Below are positions 41,789-45,831 of a stretch of DNA of 64,000 bases, piece after piece (positions within the stretch are counted from its first letter, which is position 1; every line of letters begins with the position of its first letter). A model generated the notes under the pieces. It was not told where the DNA came from, did not search any database, and saw only the letters and a program-made list of their open reading frames with translations. Source of the stretch: Streptosporangiales bacterium (lineage in GTDB: Bacteria > Actinomycetota > Actinomycetes > Streptosporangiales > WHST01); assembly GCA_009379955.1 (NCBI GenBank), contig WHST01000009.1, positions 1 through 64,000 on the forward strand. The letters run 5' to 3'. A program made the position numbers and the translations under genes.

Positions 41789-42208
41789 GTGGACATCAGA
41801 CACGCGTCCTCGGTCGAGGAGATCGTCGCGGCCGAGCACCTGCTCGACGGACCGGCCGAGCCGGCCGCCACGGAACGCTTCGTCGCCGACCCCCTCCACC
41901 ACATGCTCATCGCCTACGTCGACGACCGGCCGGCCGGCATGGTGACCGGCGTCGAGATGACCCACCCGGACAAGGGCACCGAGATGTTCCTGTACGAGCT
42001 CGGCGTCGACGAGGCGTACCGGCGCAAGGGCATCGGCTCGGCCCTCGCCGCGGAGCTGGCGCAGCTCGCCCGCGACCGTGGCTGCTACTTCCAATGGGTG
42101 CTCGTCGACAACGACAACGAGGCCGCCCTCGCCACCTACCGCCGCGCCGGCGTGACGGAGGAGGCACCCCAGACGATGCTGGGCTGGGACTTCGCCGGTC
42201 AGGGGTAG
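41789..42208 (+). CDS. GNAT-family N-acetyltransferase
   Basis: 139 aa single GNAT domain. Motif A is YELGVDEAYRRKGIGSAL and the following helix/strand QWVLVDNDNEAALATYRRAG is complete. The overall shape resembles the AAC(3)-I type of small acetyltransferases, but that alone does not show aminoglycoside activity. GTG 41789 has no ribosome site; CATGAT ends 6 nt before it. Its end overlaps the convergent gene by 10 bp. Confidence 0.8.
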   Translation: MDIRHASSVEEIVAAEHLLDGPAEPAATERFVADPLHHMLIAYVDDRPAGMVTGVEMTHPDKGTEMFLYELGVDEAYRRKGIGSALAAELAQLARDRGCYFQWVLVDNDNEAALATYRRAGVTEEAPQTMLGWDFAGQG

Positions 42209-43260
42209 TCGCGCAGGATCGTCACGCGTCCGTCGGGGCCCGAGCCCCAGCACGCGCGGTCGGCCGTGCACTGCACGCCGTCGAGGCTGCCCTCGTCGAA
42301 CGTCCGCCAGGTGCGGCCGCCGTCGACGCTGACGTCGCTGCCGGTGGGTCCGACGGCGAACGCCACCCGCGCGCCGAGCCAGGCCGCGCCCGAGCGGTAC
42401 TCGGTGGGTGCGCCCGCGCCGACCAGCTCGAACGACCGGCCACCGTCGCGGGTCGTGGCGAACGCGTCGGGTGCCGACTCCGGTGTCGTGTAGTCGCCGC
42501 CGACGGCGAGGCCGTGACGGCGGCCGCGGAACGCCAGCGCGTAGATGCCCGCGCTGGGACCGCTGGGCACCGGGGTGTCGGTCACCGACCAGGTGCGACC
42601 GCGGTCGCGGGTGTGGAACACGCGCGAGCGCTCGCCGCCGCCGGTCGCGATCCACGCGTCCCGCGGTCCCGACGAGACCAGGCAGGTGCCGCTCGCCGCG
42701 AACCCGAACTCCCCCGGCAGGGCGTCGGGCATGCCAGCCGGGTCGGCCACGCGCCAGGAGCGCCCGCCGTCCGAGGTGCGGATGAGCCGGATCCTGCCGT
42801 CGACCGGGTCGCTCATCGCGAGACCGTGCCGCTCGTCGAAGAACGTCATGCAGTCGTAGAACGCGGCCGGGTCGTCGTTGACGAAGCTCTCCTGCCAGTG
42901 CCGCCCGCCGTCGCGCGTGACGTACACCCGCGACGCGTCCCCCTCACCGATCGTGAGCGCCACCGCGTGCCTGGCGCCGAACGCCTCGATGTCGCGGAAC
43001 TCGAGCTCCTCCGCCCCCAGCGGCGAGACGTCCTCCCAGTGCCGGCCGCCGTCGAAGGTGCGCAGCACCGTACCGCCGCTGCCGGCGACCCAGCCCACGT
43101 ACCTGTTGACCGCGGCGAGACCGCGGAACTGCTCGGTGGTGCCGGTCGGCCGTTCCTGCCAGCTCGGCAGCGCGGGCGCGGCCTGGGCCGCGGAGCCCGT
43201 CCCGACCGTCGTGGCGAGGACCATCGCGGCGGCCGCCAGGCCCAGGGCTCGTCGTCTCAT
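42199..43260 (-). CDS. Secreted Ycf48/BNR-like beta-propeller protein
   Basis: 353 aa. A signal peptide (RRRALGLAAAAMVLATTVG...AQAAP) precedes a propeller of repeated blades, each with a TxDGGRxW or RDRGRTW Asp-box (about residues 66-74, 114-122, 163-171, 219-227, 270-276, 309-318). Ycf48-like proteins act as assembly factors in phototrophs, but bacterial homologues like this are mostly uncharacterised extracellular proteins annotated as oxidoreductases without evidence. ATG 43260. Confidence 0.8.
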   Translation of the reverse strand: MRRRALGLAAAAMVLATTVGTGSAAQAAPALPSWQERPTGTTEQFRGLAAVNRYVGWVAGSGGTVLRTFDGGRHWEDVSPLGAEELEFRDIEAFGARHAVALTIGEGDASRVYVTRDGGRHWQESFVNDDPAAFYDCMTFFDERHGLAMSDPVDGRIRLIRTSDGGRSWRVADPAGMPDALPGEFGFAASGTCLVSSGPRDAWIATGGGERSRVFHTRDRGRTWSVTDTPVPSGPSAGIYALAFRGRRHGLAVGGDYTTPESAPDAFATTRDGGRSFELVGAGAPTEYRSGAAWLGARVAFAVGPTGSDVSVDGGRTWRTFDEGSLDGVQCTADRACWGSGPDGRVTILRDYP

Positions 43261-43367
43261 GACGGTGCACGGTAGCGCCGAAGCGTACGCACGGGGAAGG
43301 CCGAAGCGTAAGCACAGGAAGGCAGTGGCACGCCGGGAAACGGGTCACGGTGTGCGACCGTGGTCGC

Positions 43368-44816
43368 GTGCACCGGATACTCCTCGACGGGCGGTCCCTG
43401 CGCGTCCCCGACGTCGAACGCCTCGCCCGGCGCGACGCCGAGGCCGAGGTGGCGCCCGAGTCCCGCGCGCTCGTCGCGTCCGCGCGGGCGACCGTCCTCG
43501 CGGTGGCGCGGCAGCGACCCGTCTACGGCCTGTCGACCGGCGTCGGCGCCAACCGCGAGGTCGAGGTCGACACCGACGACATCGGCGGTCACGGCATGCG
43601 GGTGCTCCGCAGCCATGCCGCCTGCACCGGACCGACGGAGGCCGACGACGTCGTCCGCGCCACGCTCGCCATCAGGCTCAACCAGATCCTCGCCGGCGGG
43701 TCGGGCATCCGTCCCGAGGTCGTGGACGCGCTCGCCACCGCGCTGGCGACCGACTCGCTCCCGGTCCTGCACCGCTACGGCGCGCTCGGCACCGGCGACC
43801 TCTCGCCTCTCGCGGAGCTCGGGCTCACGCTGGCCGGTGAGCTGCCCTGGCGTACCGGCGGAGTGCCGCCGCTGCGGTTCGTCGCGGGCGAGGCGCTCGC
43901 CTTCATGAGCAGCAGCGCTCTTACCCTCGCCACCGCGGTACTGGCCAGTGGCATGGCCGCGCGTCTCATTCGGGCGGGCCACGTCGTCGCCGCCCTGTCG
44001 TTCCTCGCCCTCCAGGGCAACGCGGAGGCGTACGCACCCGCCGTGCACGAGGCCCGGCCGCACCGCGGATCGGTCGAGGTGGCGGCGGAGCTGCGGCGGC
44101 TGCTCGGCCCGCCGCGCGAGAGCAGCCGCATCCAGGACCCGTTCGCGCTGCGCGCCATCCCGCAGGTCAACGGCGCCGCGGTCGAGACTCTCGACCGGGT
44201 ACGCGAGGTGCTCGACGTCGAGATCAACTCCGCAGTCGAGAACCCACTCGTCGTCGCCGCGGACGGCGTGCCGGCCGAGGTGCTCCACCACGGTCAGTTC
44301 CACGCCACCGAGGTCGCGTCCGCGCTCGACTCCGCCCGCCTCGCGATCGCGGCCACGTGCGCGCTGTCCACCGGCCGGCTCGGCGCGCTGCTCGAACCCG
44401 ACCTCACCGGCCTGAGCGTCTTCCTCTCCTCGGGACCCGCGGGCAGCTCGGGCCTGCTCGTGCTCGAGTACGTGGCCCACGACGTGCTCGCCGAGATCCA
44501 GCACGAGGCCATGCCGGTCACGACCGGCACCGCCGTCATCTCCCGCGGGCTGGAGGACCACGCGAGTTTCGCCACGCAGGCCGCCCGCTACACCGCCGCC
44601 CTCGCCGAGCACGTGCCAACGGTGCTCGGCTGCGAGCTGGTGGCGGCGGTCCGCGCGCTGCGCTCGGCGCCGGAACGCGTGTCCGGCGCTCCCGTGCAGG
44701 AGGCGTACGCGATCGCCGACGCCGCCCTGCCCGCGGGTGCCGCCGACCGGCCGCCGGGCGACGACATCGCCGCCGCCGTCGCCCTGCTCCCCCGCCTGGC
44801 TGCGGCCGTCGGGTGA
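43368..44816 (+). CDS. Aromatic amino acid lyase (HAL/PAL-like) with altered MIO triad
   Basis: About 482 aa, full length for histidine ammonia-lyase. Counting from GTG 43368, Y53 (PVYGLSTGVG) matches the catalytic Tyr53 of Pseudomonas HAL. The position of the self-cyclising Ala-Ser-Gly reads G141-T142-G143 in ALGTGDLSPLAE, so the serine is Thr and the alanine Gly. The PYSLR motif reads PFALR, replacing the conserved Tyr with Phe, and the Asn of ALINGT is not conserved (AFMSSSA). The later LEDHASFA keeps the Glu. It is probably a divergent lyase or aminomutase rather than a true HutH, and no other hut gene is present. GTG 43350 is an alternative start. Glycerate kinase follows 19 bp later. 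Confidence 0.8.
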   Translation: MHRILLDGRSLRVPDVERLARRDAEAEVAPESRALVASARATVLAVARQRPVYGLSTGVGANREVEVDTDDIGGHGMRVLRSHAACTGPTEADDVVRATLAIRLNQILAGGSGIRPEVVDALATALATDSLPVLHRYGALGTGDLSPLAELGLTLAGELPWRTGGVPPLRFVAGEALAFMSSSALTLATAVLASGMAARLIRAGHVVAALSFLALQGNAEAYAPAVHEARPHRGSVEVAAELRRLLGPPRESSRIQDPFALRAIPQVNGAAVETLDRVREVLDVEINSAVENPLVVAADGVPAEVLHHGQFHATEVASALDSARLAIAATCALSTGRLGALLEPDLTGLSVFLSSGPAGSSGLLVLEYVAHDVLAEIQHEAMPVTTGTAVISRGLEDHASFATQAARYTAALAEHVPTVLGCELVAAVRALRSAPERVSGAPVQEAYAIADAALPAGAADRPPGDDIAAAVALLPRLAAAVG

Positions 44817-44835
44817 GCCGGGCAGACTGATCCCC

Positions 44836-45831
44836 ATGCATCTCGTCGCCGCGCCGGACAAGTTCCGCGGGACGGCCACGGCCGCGCAGGTGGCGGCGGC
44901 CATGTGCGCCGCCGCGGTCGACGCAGGCTGGACCTGCGCCGACCTGCCGCTGGCCGACGGCGGTGAGGGCACCGTCGACGCCTTCGGCGGACCCGACCGC
45001 GAGACCACCGTCACCGGCCCGCTCGGCCGTCCGGTCGTCGCGTCCTGGCGGTACGGCGACGGCACCGCCGTGGTCGAGATGGCCGTGGCGTCCGGGCTCC
45101 AGCTGGCGGGCGGCCGCGAGCACAACGACCCCCTCGCCGCCACGACCCGCGGCACCGGCGAGCTGATCGCCGCGGCGCTCGACGCCGGCGCGCACCGCGT
45201 GATCGTCGGCATCGGCGGGTCGGCGACGACCGACGGCGGACTCGGTGCGGTCGAGGTGCTTGCGCCGTACGCACCGCTCGACGGCAGTGCCGGGGCGGCG
45301 GTGCTCGTGGCCTGCGACGTGACCACGACGTTCGCCGACGCCGCCCCCATCTTCGGCCCGCAGAAGGGCGCGGACGGGCAGCAGATCATCGTCCTGCACG
45401 AACGTCTCGAGCGGCTCGCCGAGCGATACCTGGCGGAGTACGGCGTCGACGTCCGTGCGTTGCCCGGCGCCGGCGGCGCAGGCGGGCTCGGCGGCGGCCT
45501 GGCCGCGCTCGGCGCTCGGCTCGCCCCCGGCTTCGACCTGATCTCGCAGGAGCGCGGGTTGCCCGGTGCCGCGGCCGCGGCCGACCTGGTCGTCACGGGC
45601 GAGGGCCTCCTCGACGCGCAGTCGCTCGCCGGCAAGGTCGTCGGCGGCGTGGCCGAGGTGGCCGGGATCGACCGCACCGCGGCCGTCGTCGGTGACCGCG
45701 TCGACGGCGTGCCGGTGCCGTTCCCCGTGCTGAGCCTGGTCGAGACCTACGGACGCGAGCGCGCGTTCGCCGACACCCTCGCCTGCGTGCACGACGCGAC
45801 CGCCCACCTGCTGGAGGAGCGGACCGCATGA
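44836..45831 (+). CDS. Glycerate kinase (GlxK/GarK family)
   Basis: 331 aa. The family opening MHLVAAPDKFRGTATAAQVA, LPLADGGEGTVDAF, the IVGIGGSATTDGGLGA loop and IFGPQKGAD are all present, as is VVTGEGLLDAQSLAGK near the end. It phosphorylates D-glycerate, feeding glyoxylate or sugar-acid catabolism into glycolysis. Slightly shorter than the usual 370-380 aa, the shortening lying in the middle (AFGGPDRETT). ATG 44836; its stop overlaps the next gene by ATGA. Confidence 0.88.
   Translation: MHLVAAPDKFRGTATAAQVAAAMCAAAVDAGWTCADLPLADGGEGTVDAFGGPDRETTVTGPLGRPVVASWRYGDGTAVVEMAVASGLQLAGGREHNDPLAATTRGTGELIAAALDAGAHRVIVGIGGSATTDGGLGAVEVLAPYAPLDGSAGAAVLVACDVTTTFADAAPIFGPQKGADGQQIIVLHERLERLAERYLAEYGVDVRALPGAGGAGGLGGGLAALGARLAPGFDLISQERGLPGAAAAADLVVTGEGLLDAQSLAGKVVGGVAEVAGIDRTAAVVGDRVDGVPVPFPVLSLVETYGRERAFADTLACVHDATAHLLEERTA

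Follow-up and report, generated by a model that had tools for sequence, protein, structure and literature searches.

What can a protein with the fold of histidine ammonia-lyase (HAL) still catalyze once it lacks the triad that yields the electrophilic MIO group, the textbook hallmark of the superfamily? The question is raised by a gene at 43368..44816 (+) of the window, by which we mean the whole 64,000-nucleotide stretch of Streptosporangiales contig WHST01000009.1 that was analyzed.

The gene product and its MIO site

The gene encodes an MIO-free HAL-like lyase of 482 amino acids, has a GTG start and no internal stop, and could alternatively begin at an in-frame GTG upstream, at 43350. Its product matches Lyase_aromatic (PF00221) over the full length (5.4e-110; 368.7 bits versus a gathering score of 27.3), which assigns it to the aromatic amino acid lyase fold, while it falls below the hutH equivalog TIGR01225 (303 bits versus a cut-off of 539). 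The AlphaFold model has a mean pLDDT of 89.5, and dN/dS values of 0.24 to 0.35 within the genus indicate purifying selection. A long antisense open reading frame at 43257-45677 (-) was rejected as a high-GC shadow frame, since it is the plus-strand frame that shows both the PF00221 match and codon-position bias. The gene adjoining the lyase at 42199-43260 (-) encodes a Ycf48-like protein with BNR repeats, whose start resembles a signal peptide. The same genome encodes a separate, ASG-bearing HAL (L001) as well as a third PF00221 protein (L065:8368-10320 (-), on contig C27 of genome G000), which is 650 amino acids long, has a signal-peptide-like N-terminus, carries GSPG-EGDL at the MIO site, and is missing the YGxxTG motif; it is another MIO-less member, and a very divergent one.

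In an alignment with MIO-bearing HALs and with the close relatives described below (the clade), the MIO site of the window protein falls at G141-T142-G143 (codons 43788..43796, +). An earlier note on this DNA had named these same residues, but its reading of them as a replacement for Ala-Ser-Gly did not survive the gapped alignment. The window protein has two residues (TG) between the conserved GSVG Gly and the GDL Asp, versus three (ASG, CSG, or SSG) in MIO enzymes; as this segment is one residue short, the Gly that opens "GTG" corresponds to the usual pre-triad residue and one residue of the triad is missing, so that the lesion, as read from the alignment, is a one-residue deletion and not a substitution. 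No triad of the Ala-Ser-Gly type is left under either the gapped or the ungapped reading. The alignment thus supports the view, already taken in the earlier note, of a HAL-fold protein unable to make classical MIO, and the loss of classical MIO chemistry is, on sequence grounds, close to certain.

Most of the remaining active site is kept. Tyr53 (43524..43526, +; HAL Tyr53), His83 (43614..43616, +; HAL His83), Arg262 (44151..44153, +; HAL Arg283), and Glu396 (44553..44555, +; HAL Glu414) are retained and, together with Gln256 (HAL Gln277), are invariant across the clade alignment; Phe311 (HAL Phe329) is also retained, as is the Ser-His motif of His83, which serves in substrate selection in HAL (PMC11432326). 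Glu367-Tyr368 (44466..44471, +), with Glu where MIO-bearing HALs mostly have Gln, is invariant in the order-level clade alignment. The earlier note had correctly listed Tyr53 and the later Glu as kept, and the two losses that it pointed out were confirmed as well: the Asn of the ALINGT segment, HAL Asn195, is Ser181 (43908..43910, +), and the catalytic Tyr280 of HAL is Phe259 (44142..44144, +). The latter change is not general, being limited to the window subclade and some other members, while Tyr is kept by most of the clade. Three of the four residues of the HAL-essential set (Tyr53, His83, Asn195, and Glu414) are therefore retained. G. kaustophilus HAL lost its activity when any one of the Tyr, His, Asn, or Glu was mutated (PMC11432326), and the loss of the Asn from the window protein is thus consistent with a changed reaction.

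A clade of MIO-free relatives

A search of 101 related genomes yielded homologues at 42 to 77% identity to the window protein, and G-T-G-D, the motif by which the earlier note had proposed to collect homologues, was invariant in 27/27 aligned clade members of the order. A sample of 396 genomes of the phylum added Streptomyces-like and more distant members; about twelve genomes had scores well above those of HALs. The 35 TG-type rows formed one group in the tree, with support of 99/99, apart from the MIO-bearing HALs. Because the TG form is common to all the aligned order members, to the Streptomyces-like proteins, and to more distant actinobacteria, it is neither a chance occurrence nor a sequencing error. 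The Thr is replaced by Ile in two members (L083 and L087), and L086 has TAD; the Thr hydroxyl is consequently not required by the clade. Locus L112, which carries the gene of L083 with its Ile form, retains the adjoining OpuC ATPase and permease. A single-protein scan of a contig collection returned one locus only, in a metagenome-assembled genome titled Acidothermales, whose protein is that of G002, a member of the same genus as the window. A separate MIO-less lineage was seen in L100 and L104 (genomes G348 and G295), with GSVG-QADL, SRHT for RSHA, and DEGLRPLGYT; these two rows pair in the tree and fall neither in the TG clade nor among the HALs.

Gene neighborhoods

The gene next after the lyase, at 44833..45831 (+), encodes a glycerate kinase (PF02595 match). 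The earlier note had drawn on this adjacency in judging the substrate; the adjacency is real, but the order of lyase, glycerate kinase, and ECF sigma factor is confined to the genus of the window, and the kinase was rejected as a pathway partner, being probably not functionally tied to the lyase. A tblastn comparison of the loci found no OpuC transporter, hut genes, cysteine-dioxygenase-like (CDO-like) cupin, or egtD beside the window copy or its two genus mates, and we infer the substrate of the window copy solely through its relatives. The reported lack of hut genes nearby accordingly holds for the window, but it is a poor guide to the family, in which a urocanase gene accompanies 11 of 42 loci.

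These counts come from a tblastn comparison in which 42 clade loci were set against 22 hutH control loci, covering about 10 kb on each side. An OpuC-type betaine transporter was present at 15/42 clade loci versus 1/22 controls (Fisher p=0.006, a value that overstates independence because loci are related), and a CDO-like cupin at 21/42 versus 0/22, while the urocanase gene was found at 12/22 controls. The binding protein of the lyase-linked transporter belongs to OpuAC/PF04069, and a LacI or RpiR regulator accompanies many of the clade loci. The sole control locus with an OpuC transporter, L130 (genome G054), also has egtD and LacI hits; at L130:3730-9136 the LacI gene adjoins the OpuC transporter genes without an intervening MIO-free lyase, and it looks like a case of lyase loss from an otherwise similar cluster. 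In one branch, a conserved "VDVHQH" protein of about 300 to 330 amino acids (L042:14230-15189 and relatives, 19 loci) is encoded near the lyase; a Pfam search gave no match to it even at E=1.

The neighbors also include genes of ergothioneine and urocanate metabolism, with hut genes other than that for urocanase among them. The product of egtD makes hercynine; in five genomes (G057, G024, G038, G050, and G080), which represent two genera, this gene and the lyase are 3 to 6 kb apart. At L042, egtA, egtB, and egtD are all present near the lyase, as confirmed by curated models. Some lyase-bearing genomes (G185, G229, G218, and G062) are missing egtD, and a substrate of the hercynine or ergothioneine type would have to be scavenged there. 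The hutU gene was present as one copy per genome in 16/16 genomes tested, and in G090, G073, and G063 this sole copy adjoins the MIO-free lyase, the hutH loci being located elsewhere without hutU nearby. The linked HutU of L058 is a canonical urocanase (910 bits versus a cut-off of 375) and scored below the cut-offs of both the thiourocanate hydratase and the S-methyl-thiourocanate hydratase models, so that a role of the linked urocanase as a thiourocanate hydratase was not supported.

Proposed reaction

We lean, with a little more belief than doubt, towards an active MIO-free lyase of the HAL fold that releases trimethylamine from an N-alpha-trimethylated histidine, most likely converting hercynine to urocanate and trimethylamine. 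The evidence in hand consists of the absence of a complete MIO triad, the identity of the clade, the retained catalytic residues, the fold, and the gene context of the relatives; from these we infer the substrate, leaving group, mechanism, and product. The ammonia of histidine is a poor leaving group, hence the need for the electrophilic MIO. A quaternary trimethylammonium, on the other hand, is a good leaving group that could depart without MIO, and we propose that MIO is dispensable for this reason, with the retained Tyr53/Glu396 set providing acid/base catalysis that would suffice. Loss of MIO and of Asn195 would create space for the bulky N(CH3)3 group, while the preserved HAL contacts to the imidazole and carboxylate, along with the Tyr/Glu set, would fit a histidine betaine. 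The urocanate produced could then enter the ordinary Hut pathway. Since the linked urocanase is canonical, the conversion of hercynine to urocanate is our first choice and that of ergothioneine to thiourocanate the second. In one branch, the CDO-like cupin hints at a thiol, for example ergothioneine, as a possible starting compound, which counts against the preferred reading; where the cupin is present, ergothioneine might, speculatively, first be desulfurized to hercynine. It also counts against this reading that OpuC transporters carry many quaternary amines.

The broader proposal, that the clade is a dedicated actinobacterial family of hercynine trimethylamine-lyases working without MIO and connecting the Hut pathway with ergothioneine turnover or the scavenging of betaines, is a tentative one about which we are somewhat doubtful. 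To our knowledge, no such family has been described so far, and literature searches, with subscription papers outside their scope, found no hercynine lyase.

Alternative explanations and significance

Several features would also fit an ergothionase that turns ergothioneine into thiourocanate and trimethylamine, the sulfur being removed later by the CDO-like cupin or another enzyme: the MIO-free enzyme already known in this fold (PMC13405746) is an ergothionase, an ergothionase is among the best structural matches, the OpuC-type transporters are similar to EgtU, which imports ergothioneine, and the CDO-like thiol dioxygenase adjoins half of the clade loci. Yet the genomes have one urocanase each, with the linked copy examined being canonical and under both thiourocanate-hydratase cut-offs, and the clade sequences score nearer HAL than ergothionase 6s7j, and we regard this explanation as unlikely. 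We also think it rather improbable that the protein is a lyase or hydrolase, MIO-free in either case, whose substrate is a different quaternary amine or amino acid derivative imported by the OpuC transporter; the breadth of these transporters and the presence at many loci of a LacI or RpiR regulator and of the VDVHQH protein would agree with it, but the links to hutU/hutF and egtABD point to a histidine skeleton and the HAL Ser-His motif is retained.

The disappearance of two HAL-critical features, MIO and Asn195, might instead mark a paralogue that has lost catalysis and serves a structural or regulatory function, which we consider improbable given the invariance of Tyr53, His83, and Glu396 in the clade alignment, the purifying selection in the genus, and the conserved metabolic neighbors. 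The earlier note had also raised a Thr-derived cofactor, i.e., an ammonia-lyase in which Gly-Thr-Gly forms an MIO analogue (ethylidene-imidazolone). Although Thr occurs in nearly all members and such a ring could form in principle, the Ile forms of L083 and L087, the TAD of L086, the loop shorter by one residue, and the loss of the HAL-essential Asn make this very improbable. That the protein is an ordinary HAL with an unusual MIO triad is scarcely credible: its best family-level similarity is indeed to HAL, but it scores far short of the hutH cut-off, and its genome has a separate ASG-bearing HAL. The earlier suggestion that the substrate is probably not histidine itself is supported.

The clade offers a direct test of whether a better leaving group makes MIO dispensable, as it is spread over several actinobacterial lineages, has lost MIO, keeps most of its other active-site residues, and sits amid betaine-uptake, ergothioneine, and urocanate genes. 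The preferred reading, that of a trimethylamine lyase acting on a histidine betaine, could, if true, supply a missing step from ergothioneine or hercynine to histidine catabolism and, with it, a bacterial source of trimethylamine. It would also put right a likely misannotation of the clade genes as histidine ammonia-lyase. What appears to be new here is the clade, its probable misannotation as HAL, and the predicted role as a histidine-betaine lyase.

Comparison with known enzymes

Contrary to what the earlier note had supposed, MIO-free catalysis in a HAL-type fold is not itself new; it has a precedent in ergothionase, which eliminates trimethylamine from ergothioneine and is described in PMC13405746, citing Maurer 2019, as sharing the fold and being without MIO. 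The Treponema denticola enzyme (PDB 6s7j/6s7q) has a fold in common with the window protein model, which matches HALs as well; 6s7j ranks with the best structural matches and has the highest target-normalized TM-score listed (0.88) and a TMq of 0.90 to 0.91. Across the MIO site, match coordinates give no length difference between ergothionase and the clade, while Pseudomonas putida HAL is one residue longer (56-residue alignment). Clade and ergothionase are alike in having a HAL-type fold without MIO, the absence in the latter being taken from PMC13405746. They differ in sequence (about 23% identity), and their likeness is known from fold scores, match coordinates, and literature statements; furthermore, gene context in the clade indicates a canonical urocanase and not thiourocanate enzymes.

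HutH of P. putida (1b8f) and Thermoplasma (7tqr) shares with the window protein the fold and the equivalents of Tyr53, His83, Gln277, Arg283, Phe329, and Glu414, from which the window protein departs in having no Ala-Ser-Gly, one residue fewer, Ser for Asn195, and a score far below the hutH family cut-off. The MIO-less lyases of Klebsiella plasmids (e.g., OW970024.1) and Neorhizobium resemble the clade in having no MIO triad but carry a different lesion (GSVGYL...) and form their own branch beside the MIO-bearing HALs in the tree. On plasmid OW970024.1 (L070:428-10301), the gene annotated as histidine ammonia-lyase carries GSVGYLIATAHI and no MIO triad, and clusters with an OpuC-type transporter, urocanase, HutD, and a HutF-like amidohydrolase; genes like this one, at 29% identity to the window protein, recur on many Klebsiella plasmids.
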